Virus record (IMG/VR): IMGVR_UViG_3300008740_000001
Location: 1-64,000 of that record
Source: a virus
DNA: 64,000 nucleotides
Strand: one strand, 5' to 3'
The position numbers and the translations under genes were made by a program. A model generated the notes under the pieces. The model saw only the letters and a program-made list of their open reading frames with translations. It was not told the origin of the DNA and searched no databases. The stretch's first letter is position 1. The number at the start of each line of letters is the position of its first letter. This document shows positions 19,315 to 51,990 of this stretch, piece after piece.

Positions 19315-19557
19315 ATGTGGCAGTTTTGGAAATGGAATGGAAGATATATTCAGGGCGATTTGGTAAGTAAACACAAAACCAAAACTGCTGCAATTTCAAA
19401 AGCAAAAAAGGAATTGGGAAACGACGTAATATTTACAGAGAGTACATGGAAAAAAGAAGAAGTTATTTGGATAGATAGCAAAACCCATACTCCCATGGGG
19501 ATTATTTGTAAATCAACGGGGGCGAAACGGTCTCGACAGGGTAAGAAAGGAGTATAA
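19315..19557 (+). CDS. small basic protein overlapping the tmRNA 5' end
   Basis: 80 residues: a Trp-rich N-terminus, a Lys-rich helix (about 19-34) and a strand W-I-D-S-K-T-H-T-P-M-G-I-I. The last 13 residues are encoded by DNA that also forms the 5' arm of the tmRNA (from 19518), so the natural C-terminus may be accidental. Weak ribosome-binding site. Function unknown. Confidence 0.45.
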   Translation: MWQFWKWNGRYIQGDLVSKHKTKTAAISKAKKELGNDVIFTESTWKKEEVIWIDSKTHTPMGIICKSTGAKRSRQGKKGV

Positions 19558-19938
19558 GAGTGCAAGTGGTCTAACGAAACAGAAGACCCTAAATTCAGTT
19601 TCAAAAAACATAATTGCCAATAACAATTATTATTTCGAAGAAAGCCGCTTAGCGGCCTAATCGGCGGGGTTGTCAATGACCTTGTTTCCCAACATTGAAT
19701 AACAGGCGGAGTCCTGCGAAAACAAAAAACCACAATGGAGACCTCGGCTTTATGAAAACATCTTCGGATGGACTACCTCACTAAATGTGAGAAAGGTGAG
19801 TGGGGCGCAACAGGTCAGTAAGCGCCGGAGGACGACTGACTATCTTTGTTAATTTGTGATAGTAAATTGACTAAACTTGTGAACGACTTGATACTGGACT
19901 TATTTTGGACGCGGGTTCGACTCCCGCCGCCTCCACCA
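19518..19938 (+). ncRNA. ssrA: transfer-messenger RNA (tmRNA)
   Basis: The 5' end GGGGGCG (19518-19524) pairs with CGCCTCC (19928-19934), followed by discriminator A and an encoded CCA. The T arm GCGGG-TTCGACT-CCCGC is at 19911-19927. A G3-U70 pair, the alanine identity element, is present. A likely PK1 stem (GGTCT...AGACC) lies at about 19568-19589. The tag frame ends at TAA 19658-19660 and encodes roughly KNIIANNNYYFEESRLAA; the resume codon is near 19604. tmRNA with SmpB frees stalled ribosomes and tags the peptide for proteolysis. tmRNAs are known in some phages. Confidence 0.93.
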
Positions 19939-28876: not shown

Positions 28877-29179
28877 ATGAACGAAACACTTGATCAACAA
28901 ATTGAGGCTGCATTTGATAATAAGAATCAGCCCGATTGGCCCGAGGGCCCGCTTAAGCAACTAGTCGTTGACTATGTTGGAGAAAAATCTGAAACGGAAC
29001 AGGACGTGACCATGGAGATGATGGTTGAGGTGATGGCTAAAGAATTCCCTGAATTTTTATTGGCCGTTGCAGAGGAAAACTGGATTCGTGGATATCATCA
29101 AGCCATGCACGATGTTGACGAAGGACGTAAACTTTTAGAGGCTCATCAGACTGAGAACAATGAAACCGGAACAAACTGA
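28877..29179 (+). CDS. hypothetical protein
   Basis: 100 residues, acidic and helical, with E-N-W-I-R-G-Y-H-Q-A near residue 72. It has a good AGGAG ribosome-binding site and its own promoter. No family was recognised. Its 3' end overlaps the next gene by 20 bases. Confidence 0.6.
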   Translation: MNETLDQQIEAAFDNKNQPDWPEGPLKQLVVDYVGEKSETEQDVTMEMMVEVMAKEFPEFLLAVAEENWIRGYHQAMHDVDEGRKLLEAHQTENNETGTN

Positions 29180-29885
29180 AAGCCTCAATCAAAATCTGAA
29201 AAACTATGTCAGTAAATCTATGAAAGAGTCAAAGGATTCTAGAAGAGAGTACTCTCTATTTGGCCATGTATATGTTTATGTACAAGACTTCTTACCGGAT
29301 TCTGTTGACATTGTAGAGGTTTTGGAAGAGATTGAAAATAGGATCCCGGCTCATCTATCTAACGAGATTGATACGATTTTTATCGGAGATTATGATTATT
29401 TCGATCAATTGTCGGTAACTGCCATGTATGATTCGGGAGCTATTTACGTTTCGAACAAACAGACTGATTCGTCCGATATGATCGATGACATCGTGCATGA
29501 AATTGCACACTCTCTTGAGCAGCCATACGGATATCATCTTTATTCTGACGAAGTATTAGAAACGGAATTTATACAAAAGCGCTCAGCCGGCTTTCAGGCC
29601 CTGCATGCCCACGGGTATGCAACGAAGAAACAAAAGGAAATGTTTCAGTACATTGATTACTCTAGCACTTTTGATGCCTATTTATATAAAGAAGTGGGTT
29701 ATGATCGCTTGGTGCATTTGTTCATGGGCATCTTTACGACCCCATATGCGGCCACCTCTTTAAGAGAGTATTTTGCTACCGGCTTCGAAGACTACTTTTT
29801 AAATGATAGAGAATATTTGAAAAAGGTAAGTCCAAAATTGTTTAATAAAATTCATAGACTTACAAAAGGAGATTATGATGAATGA
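29160..29885 (+). CDS. zincin peptidase, lethal-factor-like pattern
   Basis: 241 residues. V-H-E-I-A-H-S-L-E-Q (about 111-120) gives the HExxH zinc site, and S-L-R-E-Y-F-A-T-G-F-E-D-Y-F (about 198-211) supplies the downstream Glu in the E-Y-F-A-x-G-F-E form seen in anthrax-lethal-factor-like metallopeptidases of phages and bacteria. No signal peptide was seen, so it probably acts in the cytoplasm or in the virion. The substrate is unknown. Confidence 0.7.
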   Translation: MKPEQTESLNQNLKNYVSKSMKESKDSRREYSLFGHVYVYVQDFLPDSVDIVEVLEEIENRIPAHLSNEIDTIFIGDYDYFDQLSVTAMYDSGAIYVSNKQTDSSDMIDDIVHEIAHSLEQPYGYHLYSDEVLETEFIQKRSAGFQALHAHGYATKKQKEMFQYIDYSSTFDAYLYKEVGYDRLVHLFMGIFTTPYAATSLREYFATGFEDYFLNDREYLKKVSPKLFNKIHRLTKGDYDE

Positions 29886-34817: not shown

Positions 34818-35571
34818 AGAAACCAAAAGAGCTTTAAACCGGCTTAACACTTACCACGAAAAAGTCGCTCATTTGAAAGATTTATATGCAAATGAGCGAT
34901 TATTTTTGTTGGCACCGGGCCCTTCTCTGGGAGAGGTGGACGAGCAAGAACTAAGGGCGAAATTAAAAAATAGCCTTACTTTTTCTGTAAAACAAGCTTA
35001 TCTTAAGTATAAAAACGAAACAGACTTTCACTTCATCAACGATTGCAATTTGCCGATGATTAACGGGTACCCCGGATATGTATATGGAATAAAATCTGGG
35101 CCCATAACAATCGCTTCCAGCGGATACCCAGAGGAGCATGCTAGGCAGAGATACGCGCACCATCAGCATTGGGACATTTTTTGTCGAGTCCTAGATCCGC
35201 TGGTATATCAGGATCAGAACCTTCAGCGTTTGTGTGAGAGTAATGATTTTGATTCTGGCTTGTTCGATAATATGCTTGATCGCCCATGTGGCCCAAGCAT
35301 AACCCTAGAGACAGTTCTTTATATGGCAGTGCATGTTGGAGCCAAAGACATATACGCTATTGGTTGGGATAGTGGTGATAAGGCCGGAGAACATTTCTAC
35401 GATGACGAAACACACCTGACCAGCAATCGAGAATTTGAATATGCAATGGTGCAAAAAGCTTCCAGTCCATTGTATAATTGGCTAAAGGAGCAAGGAGTAA
35501 ACTTGCACTTAATTAGCAAAATCAGCGCTCTAAGCGATGAAATCCCCAGACTAAATTTAAAGGATATATAA
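34801..35571 (+). CDS. MptE/DUF115-like protein
   Basis: 256 residues. L-F-L-L-A-P-G-P-S-L (about 34-43) and I-Y-A-I-G-W-D-S-G (about 184) are the two Rossmann-type motifs of the MptE-like (DUF115) fold. In bacteria this fold is found in Maf flagellin glycosyltransferases, which transfer nonulosonic acids. Placement next to neuB and the cytidylyltransferases fits that role. Two more relatives are at 36400 and 41343. Confidence 0.65.
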   Translation: MHKRTRETKRALNRLNTYHEKVAHLKDLYANERLFLLAPGPSLGEVDEQELRAKLKNSLTFSVKQAYLKYKNETDFHFINDCNLPMINGYPGYVYGIKSGPITIASSGYPEEHARQRYAHHQHWDIFCRVLDPLVYQDQNLQRLCESNDFDSGLFDNMLDRPCGPSITLETVLYMAVHVGAKDIYAIGWDSGDKAGEHFYDDETHLTSNREFEYAMVQKASSPLYNWLKEQGVNLHLISKISALSDEIPRLNLKDI

Positions 35572-36398
35572 TGTCAACTTATATTATTGCCGAAATTGGC
35601 ATCAATCACAATGGCGATCTAAATATCGCTAAACGATTAATAGATATCGCTGCAGTGGCTGGTTGCGATGCGGTAAAGTTTCAAAAAAGAAATCCCGATG
35701 TGTGCGTACCCGAACACCAAAAGGGCGTCATGAGAGAGACGCCATGGGGAACGATGACATACTTGGATTACAAATACCGCATGGAATTTGGAAAAGCCGA
35801 GTATGATGAAATTGATCAATATTGTCGAGACAAAGGCATTGCATGGTCAGCCAGTCCGTGGGACATGGATAGTTTAGAATTCTTAAAACAGTATGATCTA
35901 CCGTTTATTAAAATACCATCTGCCATGATTACAAATGAGGAGTTGATGCGAGGCTGCGCCAATTCTGGCATGAAGGTGATCTTTTCTTCTGGTATGAGCA
36001 CTATTGAGGAAACCGATCAGGCTGTCAATTGGATGCGGGACGAAAACACTGAATTTGCACTTTTGCACTGTAATTCTACATATCCCGCGCCACTTGAAGA
36101 TTTGAATCTTAGATGCATACAGACTTTGAAGGAGCGCTATAATTGCGAGGTTGGCTATAGCGGTCATGAATTTAGACTAGGCACCTCGGTGGCTAGCATT
36201 TATTTGGGTGCTACGATTATCGAGCGTCATATCACGCTAGACAGGACGATGTGGGGTTCAGACCATTTAGCATCCGTAGAGCCCCAAGGGTTGATTAAGC
36301 TGGTAAAGGGCATTCGAGAATTGGAGATTGCCCTAGGCGACGGAGTTAAGAGAGTTACGGAAGGGGAACTTCCGGTAAGAAAGAAGTTGAGAGGCTAA
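35571..36398 (+). CDS. neuB: NeuB-type nonulosonate synthase without SAF domain
   Basis: 275 residues. E-I-G-I-N-H-N-G-D (about 7-15), A-V-K-F-Q-K-R (about 36-42), K-I-P-S-A-M-I (about 117-123), F-S-S-G-M-S-T (about 139), L-L-H-C-N-S-T-Y-P (about 165) and E-R-H-I-T-L-D (about 218) are the conserved NeuB TIM-barrel motifs. The enzyme family condenses phosphoenolpyruvate with a hexosamine to form sialic, legionaminic or pseudaminic acids. Normal NeuB has a further C-terminal SAF (antifreeze-like) domain; this protein stops at its boundary. Confidence 0.85.
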   Translation: MSTYIIAEIGINHNGDLNIAKRLIDIAAVAGCDAVKFQKRNPDVCVPEHQKGVMRETPWGTMTYLDYKYRMEFGKAEYDEIDQYCRDKGIAWSASPWDMDSLEFLKQYDLPFIKIPSAMITNEELMRGCANSGMKVIFSSGMSTIEETDQAVNWMRDENTEFALLHCNSTYPAPLEDLNLRCIQTLKERYNCEVGYSGHEFRLGTSVASIYLGATIIERHITLDRTMWGSDHLASVEPQGLIKLVKGIRELEIALGDGVKRVTEGELPVRKKLRG

Positions 36399-36399
36399 A

Positions 36400-37386
36400 A
36401 TGGAACTTGGTGCGCATTGGGGCCCATATCAGTTGGTTTTTAACAAAAACAACAAAGAAATGTTAAGCGAACACATAAGTGGCGTGCTACAATATATGAG
36501 ATATTATCCAAATTCAGTCTACGAAAACATATGGCTAGACGGGAATACTAATGAGTTGTTTAGTGCATCTCAAACTCTTTCTACTGGCAAATGTCCCATA
36601 AACCACATGTTCTGTTTGACACGCGAAGAATTCATCAATGATCAATATCCGACACACCAGCTTGGAATGAAACACAATTACGATGCGTTAAGGAATGTTT
36701 TTCTTAGTGAGAACACATTTGAGGCAATAAGTACAGAATTAAAATGTGGAGTCAACGAAGATCTGTTATCGCTAAGACACCAAGAAAAGGTTTTAATTGT
36801 GGGCGGAGGCCCTTCTACAAAACAAGTCGACTTTGCGAAACATAAAGATACTCCAGTTTGGACCATGAACGAGTTTTGGAAAAATCCGGTATTTGAATTT
36901 TTTAACAACATTCAGGCGGTGGCCTTGTGTGATGACGTTGATATCAATAGTTCGCAGCTGTGGGATTCGATTAATAATAATAATGCTGTGGTCCTGCAAG
37001 AGTTAAGTGATTTGGGCCCTGAGCGTGTCCAGTCAATTTATAACAAGGCCGGCCGGTCGACGTTTATTCATACACGATACAGATCAAAGCTGGGCATTGG
37101 CCCGAGAATGATTGTTTTAGCGATTATCCTAGGGGCCAAAGACATATATTTTTGTGGACTAGATGGCTATGATTCTGCTTCTGACGATACACACTCCTTT
37201 GAGTCTGGCAAAGACTATCCATATTGGTTCAAAGTGGGGGGTCACGCAATGCAAGCCCAGCAGCATGTGGTAACTTGGGATTATATTTTAAACTTTTTAA
37301 GACCCAGTTATGATTTCCGATTACACGATTTGTCTGCTGGAATGCCAAGTGTTAAGTATGGTTTTATGCAAGAGAATATTAAGTGA
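36400..37386 (+). CDS. MptE/DUF115-like protein
   Basis: 328 residues. V-L-I-V-G-G-G-P-S-T (about 130-139) and I-Y-F-C-G-L-D-G-Y-D-S (about 249-259) are the family motifs. An additional N-terminal region of about 120 residues is unlike its relatives. Probably a glycosyltransferase of the Maf type using the CMP-sugar made by the neighbouring genes; this is inference from fold and context. Confidence 0.6.
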   Translation: MELGAHWGPYQLVFNKNNKEMLSEHISGVLQYMRYYPNSVYENIWLDGNTNELFSASQTLSTGKCPINHMFCLTREEFINDQYPTHQLGMKHNYDALRNVFLSENTFEAISTELKCGVNEDLLSLRHQEKVLIVGGGPSTKQVDFAKHKDTPVWTMNEFWKNPVFEFFNNIQAVALCDDVDINSSQLWDSINNNNAVVLQELSDLGPERVQSIYNKAGRSTFIHTRYRSKLGIGPRMIVLAIILGAKDIYFCGLDGYDSASDDTHSFESGKDYPYWFKVGGHAMQAQQHVVTWDYILNFLRPSYDFRLHDLSAGMPSVKYGFMQENIK

Positions 37387-38072
37387 AAGATATTAACGAA
37401 ATAGCAGTAGTAATTCAGGCCCGCCTCGGCTCCCAGCGCGTTCCACGAAAAATGATTCGACCATTTGCAGACACAACTCTTCTTGATGTTGCATTAAAGA
37501 AGATTAGGCGATGCACTTCTTTTTCTCAAAATAATTTTTATTTGTCGGCGCATGAGCCAGAACTGGTGCTTCTTGGCGAAAAACACGGAGTCAACGTTTA
37601 CCGTCGATCAGCCAAGTCTGCGAATTCCGAAGGTACCCCCATGACTGAGATGTATGAATGGTGGGACCGCCTACCACATAAATATTGCGTATTGATAAAC
37701 GCATGCGCACCTTTTTTGCGTCCTGAGACAATAGACAACTTTGTAGAGGCCTACAAAATAAGCGATCAAGATGGGCTTTTTGGTGTAATTCATAAAAAAA
37801 ATTATTTTTGGAACGAACAACGAGAACTGTTAACTCCTCTTACCGAAGCGGTGATGAATACCAAGACGGTACCCGCAACATATGAGGCGGCTCATTGTCT
37901 CTACGCCGGCCGATTGGATAAAATAGGGGAAGATATATGGATGGGAAACTTTAATACACCGGGAGAAATAGGGCTATACATAATGGACGAGAAAGAAGCC
38001 TTGGACATTGATTATGAATGGCAATTTAATACATATGAAAAGCTATATAGAACATTATCAGAAGTGCGTTAA
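37383..38072 (+). CDS. SpsF/CMP-sugar cytidylyltransferase-like enzyme
   Basis: 229 residues. I-Q-A-R-L-G-S-Q-R-V-P-R-K (about 10-22) is the nucleotide-binding signature of the SpsF, KdsB and NeuA group. It probably activates a sugar acid or sugar phosphate with CTP. It overlaps the previous gene by four bases. It is one of two such enzymes in the locus. Confidence 0.75.
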   Translation: MKDINEIAVVIQARLGSQRVPRKMIRPFADTTLLDVALKKIRRCTSFSQNNFYLSAHEPELVLLGEKHGVNVYRRSAKSANSEGTPMTEMYEWWDRLPHKYCVLINACAPFLRPETIDNFVEAYKISDQDGLFGVIHKKNYFWNEQRELLTPLTEAVMNTKTVPATYEAAHCLYAGRLDKIGEDIWMGNFNTPGEIGLYIMDEKEALDIDYEWQFNTYEKLYRTLSEVR

Positions 38073-38868
38073 GCAAGCCCATGGGCCTGACCATATGTTC
38101 CTTGTCAAGCCAGTCTCCCCCGAGGATACTTTAGGCGAAGATATCGATTTAACACTAGAGGAGAATATTGAAACTTCAAAAGAATTCCGACAATTAGTAA
38201 AGTCGTTGAGTTTGAAAGTTTCGGATATTTTCCAAGACGGGACTCACATTCAAAGTACTTCGTTTTCGAACGAAATAATGGACACGCTGCAATTCCCCGA
38301 AGTTCATGAAATTTATGAACTTGCGTATGAACAGTTATTCAACTTGTATAAGTGTCACGTTACTACTAATCGTATACAAATATATCAAAACATATATTCC
38401 AAAGATACACCTTTGTCTTCATGGCAATGGCACTATGATGACAATCCTGTTCCGCAAAGAAAACTGTTTGTCTACTTGACGGATGTTGGTAGAGATGACG
38501 CTCCCTTTTGTTACTTGGGTGGCCCAACCGTTATTGGTACCACCCGAGATCAAGAGAGTACTGCATATCCATACAGAGTTGGGTCCTCGCGGATCTCACC
38601 TACCTATAGAAAAGAACAGGTGTTTAAAACTTCAAGAATTCCCGATCATTATATACGAAAGTTGCAAATGCGCCACGATGCCAGAGAATATTTTATCTTG
38701 GGCGAAGCAGGCACATCTTTTGTCTTTGATCCCAATATTATTCATAGAGCCACGATTCCCAAGCAGGGTCATCAACGCATAGCGCTTGTTTATCATCTTC
38801 ATCCGACATTGGAGAAGACTGAGCTACAAAATTTTTACAACAAGGATGTTAAAGTATATGCAATCTGA
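38035..38868 (+). CDS. 2-oxoglutarate/Fe(II) dioxygenase-like enzyme
   Basis: About 277 residues. The start is uncertain: TTG 38008, ATG 38014, ATG 38035 and ATG 38095 are all in frame without a clear ribosome-binding site. W-H-Y-D-D-N-P (His-x-Asp iron ligands) and a later P-N-I-I-H-R-A-T-I-P (distal His, Arg for oxoglutarate) follow the PhyH-like pattern. Likely hydroxylates a sugar or a lipid. A second such enzyme is at 49923. Confidence 0.6.
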   Translation: MKSYIEHYQKCVKQAHGPDHMFLVKPVSPEDTLGEDIDLTLEENIETSKEFRQLVKSLSLKVSDIFQDGTHIQSTSFSNEIMDTLQFPEVHEIYELAYEQLFNLYKCHVTTNRIQIYQNIYSKDTPLSSWQWHYDDNPVPQRKLFVYLTDVGRDDAPFCYLGGPTVIGTTRDQESTAYPYRVGSSRISPTYRKEQVFKTSRIPDHYIRKLQMRHDAREYFILGEAGTSFVFDPNIIHRATIPKQGHQRIALVYHLHPTLEKTELQNFYNKDVKVYAI

Positions 38869-39721
38869 CAAAACATCATGCTTCGTGATCCCGTGCAAAT
38901 ATAGTAAAGAGATCCCGATTATTTTTAACTGCCTAAAGAGCATAAGAAAATTTCATCCGGATGATGAAATCTTTGTAGTAGACAGCAATTCAGAAGATAA
39001 AAGCTATTTTCAAGAGGCCTCCGAACAATATGGGGCTACGGTTTTAGATGTATCAAATAACAATTATTTAACCGGCGCCATTTGGTATGTGTTCAATCAT
39101 TACAAAAGGGACTTTTATTACTGTATTCACGATTCAATAGAACTGCTAGATAATCTCGCATCGCTGCAAGAACACAGAGTCTCACCTATTATGTACCATA
39201 AGCACTGGGAATGGCCCAAGGAACCCGAGACGGGAATGCGTATAGTTGACTGGTCAAAACAGCAAATAAAGAGCCACACTAATTTCACTTTTAGAGCCAG
39301 TGACTTTTATATTCTTCTGGGCGCAATGATGTGCTGCAAGAGGGAAGTCCTTGAAGGACTTAAAATGCAGGGGTTTGATAAGATCGTGCCATCCAACAAG
39401 TATCAAGAAGAATGCACGGAGAGATTGTGGGGATTCGCACTGGGAGAAATGGGATATAATCAAGACATAGAAGAAAACTCTATCCTCGGGCCCATGCGCC
39501 AAGGGCAAGGTCTCGGAACTGATTTTATTTCTAGCATTGCAGAAGATGATGATAGGGTTGTCTTTGAGGGAGTTAAATATTATAAGGATCCTGTCGGCAA
39601 ATATCATTTAGGAAATACGGACAGGGTGGTGTTGGATGACATACCCTTTGCTTTAAAACGAAACAAAATGTATGACGGTGACAAAGTGGTAAAATACTGG
39701 TGCAGCGTTAAGAGGAAGTAA
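38858..39721 (+). CDS. GT2-like glycosyltransferase
   Basis: 287 residues from ATG 38858, which overlaps the previous stop by 11 bases. C-F-V-I-P-C-K-Y-S-K-E (about 7-17) and E-I-F-V-V-D-S-N-S-E-D-K-S (about 36-48) form the nucleotide-binding strand-loop of GT-A enzymes. The later part has an unusual acidic ladder and a R-Q-G-Q-G-L-G-T-D motif. Substrates are unknown. Confidence 0.6.
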   Translation: MQSDKTSCFVIPCKYSKEIPIIFNCLKSIRKFHPDDEIFVVDSNSEDKSYFQEASEQYGATVLDVSNNNYLTGAIWYVFNHYKRDFYYCIHDSIELLDNLASLQEHRVSPIMYHKHWEWPKEPETGMRIVDWSKQQIKSHTNFTFRASDFYILLGAMMCCKREVLEGLKMQGFDKIVPSNKYQEECTERLWGFALGEMGYNQDIEENSILGPMRQGQGLGTDFISSIAEDDDRVVFEGVKYYKDPVGKYHLGNTDRVVLDDIPFALKRNKMYDGDKVVKYWCSVKRK

Positions 39722-39722
39722 G

Positions 39723-40376
39723 ATGGCGGTAGCATGCTTTATCCCAATCAAAGAAAAGAGTACCAGAGTACCAAGAAAAAACTTCAGATATCTGCAGGAT
39801 CGGCGCCTTTTTGAACACATCATCGATACCGCAATCAAATCTGATAGTTTTGATAACATATATGTGGACACAGATAGTACAGAAATTAAGGAATATTGTA
39901 GAAAATCAGGAGTTTCGGTCATTCACAGGGAGCCCAAACTGGCAGAAGACACCGCTAACGGAAACGATTTGCTAAATCATTGGACTATGTTACACCCTGA
40001 ATACGACTATTATTTCCAGCTTCATGCCACCGCGCCATTTTTAAGCTCAACAACTGTTAAAAAATGTGTTAATATATTGACAGAAGCGAAGAATTATGAT
40101 TCTGTTTTTACAGCATATGAAAATTGCGGATGGTATTGGTATGAAAATACGCCGATTAATTATGATCCGGCCGAATTGCCTAGAAGTCAAGATGCCAAAA
40201 AGGTATACAGCGAAACTACTGGCCTATATGGAATAACTTCTTCGGCATTGAGGCATCTTGGGTGTCGTATCGGCTCTAAACCATATGTTTATTTTGTAGA
40301 TGAAGTTGAGGCGCATGATATCGACAATGAATTTGACTTTAAAATAGCGGAATTGATAGCGAGGGAATTAAAATAA
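39723..40376 (+). CDS. NeuA-like CMP-nonulosonate cytidylyltransferase
   Basis: 217 residues. I-P-I-K-E-K-S-T-R-V-P-R-K-N (about 7-20) is the CTP-binding signature of acylneuraminate cytidylyltransferases. F-Q-L-H-A-T-A-P-F-L and D-E-V-E-A-H-D-I-D (about 199-207) add the later motifs, including the acidic metal ligands. With the NeuB-type enzyme it would give a CMP-activated nonulosonic acid. Its stop overlaps the next start (TAATG). Confidence 0.8.
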   Translation: MAVACFIPIKEKSTRVPRKNFRYLQDRRLFEHIIDTAIKSDSFDNIYVDTDSTEIKEYCRKSGVSVIHREPKLAEDTANGNDLLNHWTMLHPEYDYYFQLHATAPFLSSTTVKKCVNILTEAKNYDSVFTAYENCGWYWYENTPINYDPAELPRSQDAKKVYSETTGLYGITSSALRHLGCRIGSKPYVYFVDEVEAHDIDNEFDFKIAELIARELK

Positions 40377-41359: not shown

Positions 41360-42026
41360 AAATATATTTGCAGAAGAGAAACAGAAGAAATGTTTTATCA
41401 TGGGCACCGGCCCGTCTTTATCAGACACTCCTTTGCACTTGTTGAAAGAACATATCACAATAGGTGTCAACTTGGTGATGCATTCAGGATTTGTGCCAAA
41501 TTATTTATGTGTTAGTGATAGAGAGATGGCCGTCGATAACTTTGATGCTATTTTTAATGAGAAGATGGATAACGGTACATATGTTATAGCTAGAACCAAA
41601 AATCAACATGTTAATAATTTCCTAATGAGAAAGAGTAATGTGTATTTAATTGAAGGATTTAAAGAAAACAGACCAGTTAGGCCGCCCCATATAGATGAAC
41701 AGTTTTTGAAATTTGCAATGACTAAAAACGGGGTTGTCAACGACTTAGCTGTTCCGCTGGCAGTCTATCTGGGATTTAAGGAAATTTATTTATTAGGAGT
41801 CGATGGCGAACATGGCCCAGAGGCCCACTTCTATGATCACGTCAACGCTAAGGACAAGAAGGAATCAATCATAAGAGGGCCCCGCACGCCAACGAAATAT
41901 GACTTATTGCTCGAAATATTAAAACATAGAGACATAAGCCTGTATAATTGTAGTGTTAATGGAAATAAGACGCCCGAAATAGAAACTAAGAAACTAGGAG
42001 ACGTATTAAATGGTTCATGCCTCTGA
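41343..42026 (+). CDS. MptE/DUF115-like protein
   Basis: 227 residues; ATG 41343 and ATG 41346 are both possible. C-F-I-M-G-T-G-P-S-L (about 18-27) and I-Y-L-L-G-V-D-G-E-H-G (about 149-159) are the fold's motifs. It is the third relative in this locus. Both ends overlap their neighbours by about 17 bases. Confidence 0.65.
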   Translation: MMKVIKNIFAEEKQKKCFIMGTGPSLSDTPLHLLKEHITIGVNLVMHSGFVPNYLCVSDREMAVDNFDAIFNEKMDNGTYVIARTKNQHVNNFLMRKSNVYLIEGFKENRPVRPPHIDEQFLKFAMTKNGVVNDLAVPLAVYLGFKEIYLLGVDGEHGPEAHFYDHVNAKDKKESIIRGPRTPTKYDLLLEILKHRDISLYNCSVNGNKTPEIETKKLGDVLNGSCL

Positions 42027-42732
42027 CATGCATTATCATCAAGAATTGATTGAGAAGCTGGTTCGCGCCACTTCTGCAAAAGTTGTATTAGAACTTGGCG
42101 TCCGTGCCATCGTTTCCCACCCGCGCAAAGGCACCTCGACATTCTTTTTCTGGAAATCATTGGCTCCAGAAGAGGGAAAACTTTATTCAGTTGATCTGAA
42201 AAACCCGGCAAGTCATAATCATTCAGAAGAATTCCTACTACGCGAATTACGAAGTTCAGGTAGATGGGAGTTTATCCAAGGAAATACCATGAATGTGTTC
42301 GAGGACATAGAGGCTCGCTTCCGGAAAGAGAATATAAGTGTGGACATTCTTTTCATCGACACGGACAAAGAAGGTGACTTAACAAAATATGAATTGGAAA
42401 ACTATTCTAAGCTGCTGGGGCCCAAAGGCATTATCATGATGCACGATACAGGGTGGGTACCCAGCAAGAGGGTGCATGAACTAGCCAGAGCAAACTCAGG
42501 CTGGCCGGCCCATGATTCGGCGGTTCAAGATTTCTTGCAGCAGACAGATTTTAAGATGAAAGCACAACTCGGAAGTTACAATATGGTCGTACTTTATAGA
42601 GATGTTGCCGATCTATGCGGAGTGAAGATTGATAATGATCTCCCGGTCGACGAAAATAGGGCGCCCTATGAAGACTCAAAAGTTGCACTACGGCGCCGCA
42701 AGTTTAACGAAATTTGGAGTAAATACGAATGA
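42010..42732 (+). CDS. class I SAM methyltransferase
   Basis: 240 residues. V-V-L-E-L-G-V-R (about 25-32) followed by G-K-L-Y-S-V-D-L (about 56-63) and I-L-F-I-D-T-D-K-E (about 114-122), with M-M-H-D-T-G-W, follow the Methyltransf_24/cephalosporin-hydroxylase-like pattern. It probably methylates a sugar hydroxyl. It lies directly upstream of the RuBisCO-like gene with a four-base overlap. Confidence 0.75.
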   Translation: MVHASDMHYHQELIEKLVRATSAKVVLELGVRAIVSHPRKGTSTFFFWKSLAPEEGKLYSVDLKNPASHNHSEEFLLRELRSSGRWEFIQGNTMNVFEDIEARFRKENISVDILFIDTDKEGDLTKYELENYSKLLGPKGIIMMHDTGWVPSKRVHELARANSGWPAHDSAVQDFLQQTDFKMKAQLGSYNMVVLYRDVADLCGVKIDNDLPVDENRAPYEDSKVALRRRKFNEIWSKYE

Positions 42733-43913
42733 AAATTTTTAGAGAAAGTCTCGATAGCGAGAAGTATATTATGGTCGAATACTATTTAGAGTCCAAGACG
42801 ACACTAAGAGATGCCGCATGGAGCTTGGCCATTGGACAAAGTGTAGGTAATCCCAATGTAAGAAACCAGTGGGAGACCGATGAACTTTTTGAAAACCACG
42901 CATGTATGGTGCTCGGTGATGAAGAGTGGCTAGCATCTTCAAATTCTGGACATGTCGCCATTGGTTTTCCAGTCGACAATATCGATTTGTCAACTGATGG
43001 GATTTCTCACCTGTTATGTCAGATTATGGGAGGCCAGTTAGATATTGATATTGTTTTAAAATGTCATGTGCTGAATATTGAATTTCCCCAAGCGGCTTTA
43101 CAACATTTTCGTGGGCCAAAATATGGAATCTCTGGTATTCGAAAGTTTACAAAGGTGTATGATAAACCGCTTTTGGGCGGAATCGTTAAGCCCAAGATTG
43201 GCATTAGTCCAGAAGTGCTGTTGGAAATGGTCAAGGAAATGGTTGAAGGCGGTGTAAACTTTATTAAAGAAGACGAGATTATGTCTAACCCGCATTTCTG
43301 CACAATCGAAGATCGTGTCCCGAGAATAATGGAATATCTGAAAAACAAGAATGTAATTTATTCGGTTTGCATTAATTCTGATGCTCCGTACTTGTTAGAC
43401 AGAGTTCGACAAGTTCACTCTTTGGGCGGAAACTCTGTACATGTTAACTTCTGGAGCGGCTTAGGATCTTATAAGGCGATTAGAGATCTGGACTTACCAT
43501 TGTTTATTCATTTTCAGAAAAGCGGCGACAAGATCTTGACGAACAAAAGTCACGACTATCACATTGACTGGAGAGTCGTATGTGATCTGGCCGGCCTTAT
43601 GGGTGTTGATTTCATCCATGCTGGCATGTGGGGCGGCTATATGAGTGACAATGAGAAAGAACTCAAAGCAGTTGTGTCCACGCTACATAACCACGGAGTG
43701 GTGCCTGCATTAAGCTGCGGCATGCATCCGGGCTTGGTACAAGCCATCAACAGCCGCTTTGGGGTAGACTACATGGCGAACGTAGGAGGAGCCATCCACG
43801 GCCATCCTAGTGGCTCTCTTGGTGGCGCCCGAGCCATGCGCCAGTCAATTGATCACGACCACGGTTTAGAATATGAGCTAGCTATAGACAAGTGGGGTCT
43901 GGTTGATGGCTAG
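42729..43913 (+). CDS. RuBisCO-like protein (form IV-like)
   Basis: 394 residues. Both RuBisCO large-chain domains align by eye. K-P-K at 154-156 (Lys175/Lys177 of the plant enzyme), F-I-K-E-D-E at 178-183 (Lys201, Asp203, Glu204: the carbamate and Mg site), His261, His297, Ser329 and G-G-x-x-x-G-H-P at 353-360 are kept. Asn123 is replaced by Gly102, the Arg295/His298 positions are not kept and loop-6 Lys334 is Tyr304. This rules out ordinary CO2 fixation. Form IV proteins act as enolases, isomerases or decarboxylases on sugar phosphates. It lies in the glycan locus between methyltransferase and sulfotransferase genes. Confidence 0.9.
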   Translation: MKIFRESLDSEKYIMVEYYLESKTTLRDAAWSLAIGQSVGNPNVRNQWETDELFENHACMVLGDEEWLASSNSGHVAIGFPVDNIDLSTDGISHLLCQIMGGQLDIDIVLKCHVLNIEFPQAALQHFRGPKYGISGIRKFTKVYDKPLLGGIVKPKIGISPEVLLEMVKEMVEGGVNFIKEDEIMSNPHFCTIEDRVPRIMEYLKNKNVIYSVCINSDAPYLLDRVRQVHSLGGNSVHVNFWSGLGSYKAIRDLDLPLFIHFQKSGDKILTNKSHDYHIDWRVVCDLAGLMGVDFIHAGMWGGYMSDNEKELKAVVSTLHNHGVVPALSCGMHPGLVQAINSRFGVDYMANVGGAIHGHPSGSLGGARAMRQSIDHDHGLEYELAIDKWGLVDG

Positions 43914-44823
43914 GGACATCATAACAACTATGCCGGATTATAATGTTAGAATCTTAGTCTGTGGTATGTCGCGCAGTGGCAGTACGCTGTTAGTAAAAAT
44001 GATACGAAAGTATTTCGCTGAATACCACGGTTTAGTTTTACCAGTGTTGAGTAATAAACAGTTCTTGAACGCCCCACCTCGTTCGGGCAATTACATTGTC
44101 AAGACACACGTTCCAGATGTTAGTATTAAAAGAAAATACAAGCACGACCAACCCCGGGACCCTGATGATAAAGAACTTAAACAATATTTCTCGCTTACTG
44201 ATATTTTCCGTACAAAAAGAGATATAAGAGATGCAGCTGCTTCAGAAATTATAAGTTTGAACCTGCGTGAGCATTTCTTTCCGAGCGATGCCAAGGCGCT
44301 CCTAACTAAAAACGAAGATTACGAGTCTCCTTACTTAAGGGAAATTGTTAAAAAATTACACAGAGAACATATGATTTGGGCACATACCTTATCCCGCGTC
44401 CACACTCATCCAGATTTTACAGCATCCAGCACTAACACCAAGTGGTATGAGTGGAAATATGAAGATAGTATATCTGATCAGCACGCGGCATTTCGAAACG
44501 TTTTAGCGTTTTTAAAAGAAAGGCACGACTTTATCGAAGATTTGGACGACGCCTCTATCGCAAATTTGCTGGCCTCGCTGCCCGATCCAGTAGAATTACC
44601 TCGCAGCGAGGACGACTTCCGAGGCCTGCCTAGAGAATTCTGGAGAGACCCCGAAAAATTCGCAAGCGAGAACGTACCCTACAAAAAGAGGCTTGGTTGG
44701 GATGTGGGGGTGTCTAGTACCGGCGGCAAAATTGGATATTATAAAGAATTTTTTACAAAAGAACAATTAAAAGTCATTGATGGACAATGTGTTCAGTGGC
44801 TAAAAAGGAATGGTTATAAATGA
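43906..44823 (+). CDS. sulfotransferase-like enzyme
   Basis: 305 residues from ATG 43906, which overlaps the previous stop. G-M-S-R-S-G-S-T-L-L (about 16-25) is the PAPS 5'-phosphosulfate loop, and D-I-F-R-T-K-R-D-I-R-D-A (about 98-109) is the 3'-phosphate region of cytosolic-type sulfotransferases. It would move sulfate from PAPS to a sugar hydroxyl. A second sulfotransferase is at 49282. Confidence 0.75.
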   Translation: MARDIITTMPDYNVRILVCGMSRSGSTLLVKMIRKYFAEYHGLVLPVLSNKQFLNAPPRSGNYIVKTHVPDVSIKRKYKHDQPRDPDDKELKQYFSLTDIFRTKRDIRDAAASEIISLNLREHFFPSDAKALLTKNEDYESPYLREIVKKLHREHMIWAHTLSRVHTHPDFTASSTNTKWYEWKYEDSISDQHAAFRNVLAFLKERHDFIEDLDDASIANLLASLPDPVELPRSEDDFRGLPREFWRDPEKFASENVPYKKRLGWDVGVSSTGGKIGYYKEFFTKEQLKVIDGQCVQWLKRNGYK

Positions 44824-45758: not shown

Positions 45759-46493
45759 GTGAATATTTTAATTCCAATGGCCGGCGCCGGCTCTCGTTTT
45801 ACGCAAGAAGGCTACGAACTGCCTAAACCACTGATCGACATAGCCGGCCTCCCGATGATTCAGAGATGCATCAACAGCTTAGATATAACAGGACAGTATA
45901 TTTTTATCATTAGAAAATATGAGACTCTAGCTGAGACCATTTTACTTCGAGATATTTTGAAACAAATAACGGAAGAACCAATTATCATTGAAATAGATCA
46001 CGTTACAGAAGGCGCCGCATGTACATGCTTGTTGGCAAAGGAACATATAAACAATTCCGAACAACTGATTTCAGTCAATTGTGATCAGATAATGAATTGG
46101 GACTCTAAGGAGTTTCTAAATCTTGTAGAAGGTGCAAACGTTGATGGTTGTGTGGTAACATATAATTCTGATTCGATCAAAAATAGCTACATTGAACTAG
46201 ACGAGCAGGGGTTTGGCGTTCGGCTAGCCGAGAAGGATCCAATTAGTAACCTCTCTTTAACAGGAATCCACTATTGGAAACAGGGTCGCTACTTTGTAAA
46301 ATCGGCGGAAGCTATGATAAACGACAACATCAGAGTAAATAACGAGTTTTATGTGGCACCAACCTATAATCATATGATTTCGGATGGACTAAAGGTCAAC
46401 AATTATCATATTGAGAACTCCAACTTTCACCCTGTTGGTACTCCAGAAGATTTAAAGAAGTATCTTCATAGCCATTATGGTATAGAGAAATGA
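45759..46493 (+). CDS. sugar-phosphate nucleotidyltransferase
   Basis: 244 residues with a GTG start (AGGAG upstream). I-P-M-A-G-A-G-S-R-F (about 5-14) and P-K-P-L-I-D-I-A-G (about 22-30) are the classic signature of RmlA/GMP/HddC-type enzymes. It activates a sugar-1-phosphate as an NDP-sugar. The nucleotide and the sugar are not resolved. Confidence 0.85.
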   Translation: MNILIPMAGAGSRFTQEGYELPKPLIDIAGLPMIQRCINSLDITGQYIFIIRKYETLAETILLRDILKQITEEPIIIEIDHVTEGAACTCLLAKEHINNSEQLISVNCDQIMNWDSKEFLNLVEGANVDGCVVTYNSDSIKNSYIELDEQGFGVRLAEKDPISNLSLTGIHYWKQGRYFVKSAEAMINDNIRVNNEFYVAPTYNHMISDGLKVNNYHIENSNFHPVGTPEDLKKYLHSHYGIEK

Positions 46494-46816
46494 AAATTTT
46501 AAAGCTAAAAGACATGAAGGCCGGCTGGTTTATTGGTAATTTTGAACCAACTGCCTATAAAACTTCTGATTTTGAGGTATGTTATAAAGAACACCCCGCC
46601 GGCGAATCATGGGATGTGCATTTTCATAAGAAAGCTCTGGAAATTAACTATCTGATTCGTGGAAAGATGTGTATACAGGGCAAAATTTTGGAGCAAGGCG
46701 ATATTTTTATGTTATATCCGTGGGAAGTGGCAGACCCAGTTTTCATAGAAGACTGTGAGGTTGTTGTGGTCAAAGTACCTTCCGTTCCAAACGATAAATT
46801 TACAATTAAGGAATAA
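46490..46816 (+). CDS. cupin-domain protein
   Basis: 108 residues. H-P-A-G-E-S-W-D-V-H-F-H-K-K-A-L-E (about 34-50) and G-D-I-F-M-L-Y-P-W-E (about 70-79) are the two cupin motifs. It could be a sugar epimerase or isomerase, or it could bind the ligand as a sensor. The function is unresolved. It overlaps the previous gene by four bases. Confidence 0.65.
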   Translation: MKILKLKDMKAGWFIGNFEPTAYKTSDFEVCYKEHPAGESWDVHFHKKALEINYLIRGKMCIQGKILEQGDIFMLYPWEVADPVFIEDCEVVVVKVPSVPNDKFTIKE

Positions 46817-47517: not shown

Positions 47518-48510
47518 ATGTCAGAAACGGTTTTAGTAACCGGCGGAGCCGGCTTCATTGGCCATGCGGTAATTGAATATTTATTGGCCAACACAGATCA
47601 CAATGTGGTCTCACTAGATAGGTTGGATGTCTCAGGCAACTTGAATCGCTTGGGCGCCCTGATAGGGGAACATCCAGAATGGCGAACCCGACTAAGGATA
47701 GTGTGGCACGATCTTAAGGCCCCAGTGCACGATTACGTAATTAACAAAATTGGTCAGGTTGACTATATTTTACATTTGGCAGCCGGCTCACATGTTGATA
47801 GAAGCATTTTATATCCGCTGGAATATGTAATGGACAATGTTGTGGGCACATGTAACATCCTTGACTATGCACGTAAAGAGTGTGAAGATCTAAAGCTGTT
47901 TTTATATTTCAGCACGGATGAGGTCTTCGGCGCCGCCCCTCGTGGTATAACCTTTAAAGAAAATGATCGCTATAATGCCGGCAATCCTTATGCTGCATCT
48001 AAAGCTGCTGGGGAGGAGTTGTGTGTCGCATACGAAAATACATATAGCATGCCAATTATCATAACCCACACAATGAACGTATACGGACCTAGGCAGCATC
48101 CTGAAAAGTATTTGCCTCTTATTATCAACAAGGTGCTCAATGGAGATACACTGGAGGTGCATTCAAATCCGCAGCTTACAGAAGCTAGCAAGAGGCATTA
48201 TTTGCACTCTAGGGATGTAGCTGCAGCAGTTCATTTTTTGATGCAAAATCACAAAGTTGGCGAAAAATACAATATTGTGGCAAACGAAGAGACAGATAAT
48301 TTAGATTTAGCAATTAAGATTGCCGAAATCATTGGCAAGCCTTTAAAGTATAAATTGGTCGACCCACAGATTACCAGACCCCGCCATGACTTTCGTTACG
48401 CACTGTGCGGAGAAAAGCTGAGAGAAATGGGATGGACTCAGGAAATTGAACTTGTGTCGGGATTAGAAGAAGTTGTTCAATGGTTTATTGAAAACGAGCA
48501 CTGGAGGTAA
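47518..48510 (+). CDS. NAD-dependent sugar epimerase/dehydratase (SDR)
   Basis: 330 residues. T-G-G-A-G-F-I-G (about 7-14) is the NAD site, S-T-D-E-V-F-G (about 128-134) and Y-A-A-S-K-A-A (about 157-163) carry the catalytic Thr/Tyr/Lys set. This is the pattern of dTDP-glucose 4,6-dehydratase, and the S-T-D-E-V-F-G match is strong. It would modify an NDP-sugar. It starts directly after the previous stop. Confidence 0.85.
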   Translation: MSETVLVTGGAGFIGHAVIEYLLANTDHNVVSLDRLDVSGNLNRLGALIGEHPEWRTRLRIVWHDLKAPVHDYVINKIGQVDYILHLAAGSHVDRSILYPLEYVMDNVVGTCNILDYARKECEDLKLFLYFSTDEVFGAAPRGITFKENDRYNAGNPYAASKAAGEELCVAYENTYSMPIIITHTMNVYGPRQHPEKYLPLIINKVLNGDTLEVHSNPQLTEASKRHYLHSRDVAAAVHFLMQNHKVGEKYNIVANEETDNLDLAIKIAEIIGKPLKYKLVDPQITRPRHDFRYALCGEKLREMGWTQEIELVSGLEEVVQWFIENEHWR

Positions 48511-48514
48511 TTAA

Positions 48515-48958
48515 ATGATTTGGATAGCACATAGGGGGAATATTGATGGCCCAAAACCCGAAATGGAAAACCGGCCGGAATATTTATTAGCCGCCACTGA
48601 AAAAGGTTATGATGTAGAAGTAGATGTTTGGCTAGCCGGAGATAAATTATTTCTTGGTCATGACGAGCCTCAATATGAAACAAATATCGAGTTTTTAAAT
48701 AATGAGCATTTTTGGTGTCATTGTAAAAATGCCGAAGCGCTCAAGCTTTTGCTTGAGCATGGAATTCACTGTTTCTTCCATATCGGAGATGATGTTACAT
48801 TGACCTCAAAGAACTACATCTGGACCTTTCCGAAGAAAAGATTGATCTCCGGAGCCATTTGTGTCATGCCAGAATATGGCTACAGGGGCGATATTGATGG
48901 ATGTATCGGCGTGTGCAGCGATAATATTCTTGAATGGGAGAAGCGATATAATGGCTGA
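48515..48958 (+). CDS. GDPD-like phosphodiesterase fold protein
   Basis: 147 residues, about half the usual length. I-A-H-R-G-N (about 4-9), V-E-V-D-V-W-L-A-G-D-K-L-F-L-G-H-D-E (about 33-50) match the first half of the glycerophosphodiester phosphodiesterase TIM barrel, with His, Arg, Glu, Asp and His of the active site. The C-terminal half is short. It may cleave a phosphodiester in a glycan or lipid. ATGGCTGA overlaps the next gene start. Confidence 0.65.
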   Translation: MIWIAHRGNIDGPKPEMENRPEYLLAATEKGYDVEVDVWLAGDKLFLGHDEPQYETNIEFLNNEHFWCHCKNAEALKLLLEHGIHCFFHIGDDVTLTSKNYIWTFPKKRLISGAICVMPEYGYRGDIDGCIGVCSDNILEWEKRYNG

Positions 48959-50826: not shown

Positions 50827-51660
50827 ATGAAAACTGCACTAATTATCCCGGGCCACATAAGAAATATAGACCAGACAATAGATAATCAAAAGTCAAAACT
50901 GATTAAGCCCAACGATTGTGATATTTTCGTGTATACATCAACCATGAATACTCAACGCTGGACCATCCACACTCAGGATCGCAGATACTATCATGCTCCG
51001 AAGGGCGAAATTCACCATAGCAACAGGTATTTGAAACAAAGCGCCGGCACTGTGGGTTCTATTTATCTTCTAGATAAAGAATATGTTGCAGATGTGTTAA
51101 GAAGGAATTATGGTGAAAGATTGAAAGGCTATGTCATAGAAGAAGAAATTCCAAATGACGCCAGCAGAGAACTGGATCACTTGAAATGGGAATTTCACAG
51201 AGTTAGACAATTTAAAAAAGCATACGAATGCAACAAATTAATGCATGAGCACGAAGAAGAGCATGGGTTTAAATATGATTTTGTCATCCGCGCCCGCACG
51301 GATATCACATTAGACCAAACAATCACTCCGGTTGATTACGCCAGTGCTTATATCAGTGAATATTCACGGGAAGAATACGAAAAGTCTGTATTTCTCTTTG
51401 GAGGCTGGCCCGATCCCACCGGAAGAAGCAAATCTGGTAGGGGGTTGTTTGATGGATTTGCTTTCGGCCACCCCACAGCGATGGATGTTTATTTTGATGT
51501 TTATAATACCAAAAAGATATACGAAAACAGTGGCCACCCAACGGATCTTGAACATCCCGCTAACCAGCTAGAACAACATATAGAAGAAAATAATGTGGAA
51601 CTGGTTTATCTTAAAGGCTGGACAGGGAAGCATAATCGGGGATATAAACTTACTAGGTGA
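50827..51660 (+). CDS. glycosyltransferase-like protein
   Basis: 277 residues. A-L-I-I-P-G-H-I-R (about 4-12), D-I-F-V-Y-T-S (about 36) and Y-D-F-V-I-R-A-R-T-D (about 149-158) resemble bacterial surface-polysaccharide proteins that carry an R-x-R-x-D motif and are probable glycosyltransferases. Substrates are unknown. Confidence 0.55.
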   Translation: MKTALIIPGHIRNIDQTIDNQKSKLIKPNDCDIFVYTSTMNTQRWTIHTQDRRYYHAPKGEIHHSNRYLKQSAGTVGSIYLLDKEYVADVLRRNYGERLKGYVIEEEIPNDASRELDHLKWEFHRVRQFKKAYECNKLMHEHEEEHGFKYDFVIRARTDITLDQTITPVDYASAYISEYSREEYEKSVFLFGGWPDPTGRSKSGRGLFDGFAFGHPTAMDVYFDVYNTKKIYENSGHPTDLEHPANQLEQHIEENNVELVYLKGWTGKHNRGYKLTR

Positions 51661-51669
51661 AAATAACAA

Positions 51670-51990
51670 ATGATTGTATACATTGACATAGACGAAACAA
51701 TAGCAGACACACCAGCAGATAGGAATTACAGCCTATCGACACCAATTAGAGAAAATATTGAAAAAGCCAACAGATACTACGAAGATGGCCACACTGTTGT
51801 TTATTGGACAGCACGAGGCAGCGGCAGTGGAATTGATTGGTATGAGATAACCAGAGATCAACTTCAGTCATGGGGCGTCAAATACCATGAACTCAAGTTG
51901 GGAAAACCAATTTATGATTTATTCATTGATGATAAAGCAATGAACCCAGCAGAATGGGAAAACAAAGGAGAAAAAAATGAATCAGAATGA
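51670..51990 (+). CDS. HAD phosphatase of capsular-sugar type
   Basis: 106 residues. I-D-I-D-E-T-I (Asp5 and Asp7), W-T-A-R-G-S-G (motif II, about 44) and L-K-L-G-K-P-I-Y-D-L-F-I-D-D-K-A (about 76-91) match the small HAD phosphatases found in polysaccharide loci. The L-x-x-G-K-P-x-Y-D-x-x-I-D-D end is typical. Probably dephosphorylates a sugar phosphate. It is the last sugar gene of the block. Confidence 0.75.
   Translation: MIVYIDIDETIADTPADRNYSLSTPIRENIEKANRYYEDGHTVVYWTARGSGSGIDWYEITRDQLQSWGVKYHELKLGKPIYDLFIDDKAMNPAEWENKGEKNESE

Follow-up and report, generated by a model that had tools for sequence, protein, structure and literature searches.

A RuBisCO-like protein from phage glycan loci, assigned by sequence to a new form IV clade and proposed to act on sugar phosphates

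The window analyzed here is a stretch of 64,000 nucleotides (positions 1 to 64,000 of the IMG/VR virus record IMGVR_UViG_3300008740_000001), and its parent record is 203,859 bases long. It encodes a RuBisCO-like protein (RLP) together with the following genes:

42010..42732, + strand, methyltransferase (Pfam), directly upstream of the RLP, not a conserved neighbor
42729..43913, + strand, RLP of 394 aa, predicted sugar-phosphate isomerase/epimerase of a new form IV clade (Pfam, model, tree)
43903..44823, + strand, sulfotransferase-like gene, directly downstream of the RLP, not a conserved neighbor
45759..46493, + strand, sugar nucleotidyltransferase (NTP_transferase/MobA-like; family matches), conserved partner
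46490..46816, + strand, small cupin of 108 aa, conserved partner, overlapping the end of the nucleotidyltransferase gene
47518..48510, + strand, NAD-dependent sugar epimerase/dehydratase (large family, general glycan gene)
48515..48958, + strand, mini-GDPD-like protein of 147 aa, conserved partner, with an HRG..EN..E.D..GHD motif
50827..51660, + strand, DUF7796-like protein, conserved-context gene

The RLP gene is intact and overlaps each flanking gene by a few bases. Its product matches Pfam RuBisCO_large (E=2.9e-33; 115.8 bits against a cut-off of 30.1), and its best sequence match in the PDB, among RuBisCO and RLP structures, is 2cwx (E=2.7e-38). The structure prediction that an earlier note on this DNA had suggested as a check bore out the assignment: the AlphaFold2 model (pLDDT 92) was matched by Foldseek over its full length to form III RuBisCO and MtnW structures (TM about 0.8-0.88), with a TM of about 0.88 and E about 1e-30 against RuBisCO structures. 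With a RuBisCO fold, a superfamily match, and replacements at Lys334 and Asn123, the protein belongs to form IV in the broad sense.

Genes for a T4-type Gp23 major capsid protein and a terminase lie on the same record, which is therefore that of a phage. Host contamination, a possibility raised by the earlier note, is ruled out on this ground and is also countered by the hundreds of other viral contigs that carry the gene. A search for psbA in this phage found none, and the nearest relatives of its capsid protein come from Flavobacterium phages, a Microcystis phage, and an uncultured phage. Its identification as a cyanophage was not upheld.

Relatives of the RLP were detected by profile search in at least 361 IMG/VR viral contigs and on 23 cellular contigs. 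The bacterial carriers are SAR11, Crocinitomicaceae, Azospirillum, three Legionella species, Elusimicrobia, Sphingobacteriales, Verrucomicrobiia, and a Patescibacteria MAG, while the archaeal carriers are Pacearchaeota, Woesearchaeota, and Nanoarchaeia. Some short MAG or single-cell contigs counted as cellular could be viral themselves. Among the 93 genomes drawn for the L. nautarum family, only L. nautarum itself gave a match. The RLP was not found among the 50,697 INPHARED records or in a search of plasmids, and BFVD returned general TIM barrels only, with no full-length RuBisCO-fold protein. IMG/VR was also scanned with one protein each of forms I and II and with a profile of the canonical KDDE motif; these scans, which reach only sequences that contain the chosen peptides, yielded no relatives.

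In a maximum-likelihood tree, the viral and cellular RLPs (31 rows) formed a single clade with a support of 100/100, apart from all of the reference groups. These were forms I, II, and III, MtnW, photo and non-photo/OiaX-type RLPs, and the 3qfw (R. palustris RLP1) group, which represented the R. rubrum kind in place of the R. rubrum RLP itself. The clade was also recovered in an earlier tree built from more members, where cellular and viral ones were interspersed. Three cellular members, with a long branch or a partial sequence, were omitted from one or both trees. The NCBIfam models also scored far below their cut-offs on the RLP: rubisco_III 175 bits (cut-off 497), a second forms I-III model 161 bits (438), the MtnW model TIGR03332 125 bits (513.6), and the OiaX model NF042437 138 bits (700). 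On sequence grounds, we assign the RLP to a new form IV clade, outside the known methionine-salvage groups in which the earlier note had said that a placement would count against it. The family may be included among the 65 RuBisCO homologues outside known groups in the 2007 GOS survey (PMC1821046).

These results bear on a link to apionate-type metabolism that the earlier note had raised and for which nothing specific was found. On this reading, the RLP would be an OiaX-like keto-acid decarboxylase or transcarboxylase: its substrate would be a branched or acidic sugar phosphate, and its product, a sugar that is branched or shortened, would go to the nucleotidyltransferase. OiaX (3nwr type) belongs to the same superfamily and acts on sugar-acid phosphates, such chemistry is known from members of the RuBisCO superfamily in the 3-oxo-isoapionate pathway (Carter et al. 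2018, cited by PMC6302742), and the OiaX model does give the RLP a score. This score, however, is far under the cut-off, the RLP clade is separate, and OiaX-type proteins retain Asn123, His294, Arg295, and Lys334, all of which are replaced in the RLP. We consider this explanation improbable.

Residue conservation was counted over 123 RLP sequences, 122 of which cover Tyr304. The roles of the active-site residues are those generally known for spinach RuBisCO, assigned to the RLP by alignment. Lys154, Lys156, Lys180, Asp182, and Glu183 (spinach Lys175, Lys177, Lys201, Asp203, and Glu204) as well as Gly102 are invariant in 123/123 sequences. Replaced in all 123 are Glu60 (by Gln37), Thr65 (Asn41), Trp66 (Pro42), Asn123 (Gly102), Thr173 (Ile152), and His294 (Gln263), and the loop-6 Lys334 is Tyr304 in 122/122. 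The residue calls first made on this one sequence (Lys154, Lys180, Asp182, and Glu183 present; Tyr304 and Gly102 at Lys334 and Asn123) hold across the relatives. In the P2 pocket, Lys264, His297, and Ser329 align with Arg295, His327, and Ser379; position 264, whose correspondence to Arg295 is based on sequence alignment, is Lys in 118 RLPs, Arg in 1, and Ser in 4, position 297 is His in 117, and Ser329 is invariant. Asp105, Gln263, and Ser265 are invariant polar residues specific to the family. The median dN/dS of 0.06 (range 0.01-0.13; 260 pairs) indicates purifying selection.

By this pattern of conserved and replaced residues, the RLP retains its metal/enolate machinery as well as a C5-phosphate (P2) pocket preserved in kind. 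It has lost the loop-6 carboxylation lysine and that side of the P1 pocket which Thr65, Trp66, and Lys334 form. Of the residues that define forms I-III, the Mg/carbamate site and Lys175 are present in 123/123, and none of Lys334, Asn123, His294, and Thr65 is. Form III RuBisCO (P. horikoshii 2cwx, 8dht) provides the best sequence and structure matches and shares the full-length fold, the Mg ligands, Lys175, and Lys177. Where form III has Lys334, Asn123, His294, and Thr65-Trp66, the RLP has Tyr, Gly, Gln, and Asn-Pro, and in the tree the RLP does not fall within the branch of forms I-III. MtnW, the DK-MTP-1-P enolase (2oej, 2zvi), shares the superfamily, the Mg-enolate chemistry, and about 27% identity in the structural match, but the aligned MtnW sequences have lost the P2 residues Arg295 and His327, both of which the RLP keeps in kind, and the RLP has a separate clade and another gene context.

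Viral rbcL or RbcL-like genes have been counted as carbon-fixation auxiliary genes in metagenomes (PMC8506154 and PMC12607003), and carboxylation has been reported for a viral rbcL1 co-expressed with rbcS (PMC12615777), which may or may not belong to the RLP family. Following this usual reading of viral rbcL, the RLP would be an active carboxylase and would raise CO2 fixation in the host. Against this stand the Tyr at Lys334 (122/122), the Gly and Gln at Asn123 and His294 (123/123), and a conserved context of sugar activation; we regard a carboxylase as extremely improbable, in agreement with the earlier note, which had taken the protein to be RuBisCO-like and no ordinary carboxylase. The available text of the three reports does not mention a sugar-cassette context for viral rbcL, and our literature search found no described role for a phage RLP. 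The earlier statement that no phage system of this kind was known stands as far as INPHARED and BFVD are concerned; as a statement on viral rbcL or RbcL-like genes at large, it is qualified by the metagenome reports. Viral 'rbcL' genes that belong to the RLP family should be left out of any count of CO2-fixation genes. The published carbon-fixation readings are also affected by the contrast between at least 361 contigs with this non-carboxylating family and the lack of any relative in the form I, form II, and KDDE-motif scans.

For the context count, ORFs were clustered around the 123 RLP loci, which make up 73 groups at 90% identity, within a range of 6 kb. A sugar nucleotidyltransferase was found within this distance of the RLP in 66/73 groups, the mini-GDPD-like protein in 57, the small cupin in 51, and a DUF7796-like gene and a sugar epimerase/dehydratase in 35 each. 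The most common viral order is nucleotidyltransferase, cupin, RLP, mini-GDPD, and the nucleotidyltransferase adjoins the RLP in most relatives. Azospirillum and Elusimicrobia carry these four genes as one complete operon. All four are also in the window, where they are dispersed (RLP at 42729, nucleotidyltransferase at 45759, cupin at 46490, mini-GDPD at 48515), with the DUF7796-like gene at 50827. The window nucleotidyltransferase is 1.8 kb downstream of the RLP, with two genes between, and it groups most closely with nucleotidyltransferases fused to a PNKP-HAD, not with the main RLP-linked branches. It is the intact arrangement of close relatives (e.g., loci L003, L004, and L008) that carries the argument.

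The earlier note had argued for a function from the methyltransferase and sulfotransferase that adjoin the RLP. The methyltransferase was confirmed, and the sulfotransferase-like gene scored 26.6 bits in Pfam, just below the cut-off of 27. Neither is conserved across relatives, and the two genes were dropped as a clue; the conserved partners are instead the nucleotidyltransferase, the cupin, and the mini-GDPD, none of which had been named. The description of the region as a phage glycan locus is upheld, and the proposed look at other phages placed their RLP genes beside sugar-cassette genes as well.

The cupin profile gave weak matches to small cupins in the PDB, one of them named mannose-6-phosphate isomerase (E=2e-4), and a weaker match to the pectin-degradation protein KdgF (E about 0.2-0.5). 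The catalytic motif of the mini-GDPD (H6, R7, E18, N19, E35, D37, and H49) is invariant, and its model has a pLDDT of 97, with a weak best structural match to the GDPD 2pz0 (E=0.04, TM 0.52); the 147-aa protein has no Pfam match, and neither PF03009 nor the full GDPD fold was recognized in it. The DUF7796-like protein is possibly the transferase of the cassette, and its gene directly follows the cupin gene in the cultured cyanophages Bellamy and SynMITS9220M01.

Some further genes were observed around these cassettes. A small ORF at 51670-51990 of the window weakly resembles (E=0.004, 12 bits) the PNKP-type HAD domain to which sister cassettes have their nucleotidyltransferase fused. Three SAR11 contigs (L045, L051, and L052) have a second, degenerate nucleotidyltransferase-like gene without the GxGxR motif beside the RLP. 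The Azospirillum cassette is followed by genes read by eye as CysD/CysN. The Legionella loci L056, L057, and L059 carry a divergent LicD-family gene beside the RLP and nucleotidyltransferase, identified by a family match in L056 and by position and length in the other two; the case that it makes for a phosphodiester-linked product is weak, as the RLP gene is nearly identical among the three species.

A sample drawn independently of the RLP, from viral loci with a mini-GDPD or a cupin, contained 94 distinct nucleotidyltransferases. Exactly one sugar-phosphate partner, either fused, adjacent, or near, was found for 84 of these: the RLP in 35, a beta-PGM-like HAD (HAD2) in 34 (28 fused and 6 adjacent), a PNKP-like HAD in 11, and the ribose/galactose isomerase RpiB in 4. 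Seven had no partner and three had two; in the RLP-sampled set, two partners were found for 4/59. The RLP was present with 36/48 stand-alone nucleotidyltransferases and absent with 43/46 fused ones (Fisher p=2.7e-12, a value in which independence is overstated, since the sequences are related). The partner type tracks the nucleotidyltransferase tree, with 14 changes compared to 51 in shuffles. HAD2 as a strict alternative to the RLP was weakened by a few loci that carry both. The RLP therefore occupies a slot held elsewhere by a sugar-phosphate isomerase or a HAD phosphatase/mutase, which is the strongest pointer to its function. It is important to note that, because HAD phosphatase- and mutase-like proteins also fill the slot, its position alone is no proof of an isomerase.

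Cyanophage capsule and O-antigen sugar clusters with cupins and nucleotidyltransferases have been described with no mention of RuBisCO (PMC7824862). Bellamy and SynMITS9220M01 resemble the RLP loci in having the same cupin, DUF7796-like, and mini-GDPD genes with a nucleotidyltransferase, but the latter is fused to an RpiB domain where the RLP family has the RuBisCO-like protein. These fusions (L325:7489-8646, NC_047838.1; L326:5632-6789, MT408532.1) are annotated 'phosphatase', which is likely a misannotation.

The cupin also invites comparison with the R. palustris RLP1 / R. rubrum MTRu-1-P isomerase kind, the closest functional analogy. The R. rubrum RLP is a ketose-phosphate isomerase that works with a cupin in the MTA-isoprenoid shunt (PMC4958253), and it is a precedent for isomerization by an RLP. 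The phage RLP could likewise be a sulfur-salvage enzyme, either an MTRu-1-P isomerase, perhaps acting with its cupin, or a DK-MTP-1-P enolase-like protein. Yet the tree sets it apart from both groups, and distantly so from the R. palustris RLP1 group, the MtnW score is low, a general (not family-by-family) scan of the neighbors showed glycan genes and no methionine-salvage gene, and the same cupin also accompanies RpiB and HAD partners. A role in sulfur salvage is accordingly very improbable.

We propose that the RLP is a catalytically competent but non-carboxylating, Mg-dependent ketose-phosphate isomerase or epimerase that feeds NDP-sugar synthesis for surface glycans, where it would contribute to an unusual sugar, and give this proposal an even chance of being right. 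It draws directly on the fold, the conservation, the purifying selection, the linkage to the cassette, and the exclusive partner slot; the isomerase or epimerase reaction, a pentulose-5-phosphate-like substrate, the order of the steps, and the glycan destination are what we infer from these. RpiB acts on pentulose 5-phosphates, and this class fits the retained P2 pocket, which makes a pentulose 5-phosphate a reasonable, if quite speculative, candidate substrate. Mg2+ on a (carbamylated) Lys180, Asp182, and Glu183 would bind the keto group of the ketose phosphate, the phosphate being held in the old P2 (C5-phosphate) pocket by Lys264 (RuBisCO Arg295), His297, and Ser329. The Lys180/Lys154 machinery would then move a proton via an enediolate and give an isomeric or epimeric sugar phosphate; CO2 would not be added, since Tyr takes the place of the loop-6 Lys. 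The step after the RLP may be that of the cupin, and the nucleotidyltransferase would then form an NDP-sugar to be passed to a transferase.

The cassette is also compatible with another Mg-enolate reaction, in which the RLP would act on a sugar phosphate as an aldolase-, dehydratase-, or mutase-like enzyme and supply the same nucleotidyltransferase. HAD phosphatase or beta-PGM-like proteins, which are not isomerases, account for half of the slot replacements, and the invariant, family-specific Asp105, Gln263, and Ser265 suggest a reaction unlike those of known RLPs, but the same slot is also occupied by RpiB, which is an isomerase, and isomerization has its RLP precedent. We view such a reaction as possible, on the unlikely side.

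If the isomerase/epimerase proposal is true, a biosynthetic, glycan-making role would be added to the RuBisCO superfamily, in which the non-carboxylating members characterized so far serve sulfur salvage or the breakdown of sugars, and the RuBisCO fold would be exchanged with ordinary sugar-phosphate enzymes. The proposal makes a concrete prediction of enzyme, partner, and slot, and its novelty lies in a new RLP clade, as assigned above, in a new, biosynthetic context. More broadly, and tentatively, the family might be a new and widespread class of ketose-phosphate isomerases/epimerases dedicated to NDP-sugars, mostly phage-borne, swapped with RpiB or HAD proteins in a modular cassette, and the main RuBisCO-superfamily protein of viral metagenomes, where rbcL is read as CO2 fixation.

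Other features of the window were noted in passing. At 35571-40376, genes for NeuB, a CST-I-like sialyltransferase, and two CTP_transf_3 cytidylyltransferases constitute a nonulosonic-acid route within the same phage locus. A weak match to an ATLF metallopeptidase-like domain, below the Pfam cut-off, lies at 29160-29885. The phage also encodes a tmRNA at 19518-19938(+), whose tag is ANNNYYFEESRLAA. After it come tRNA genes for Gly, Lys, Ile, Arg, and Asn, five in all, that extend to 26902.
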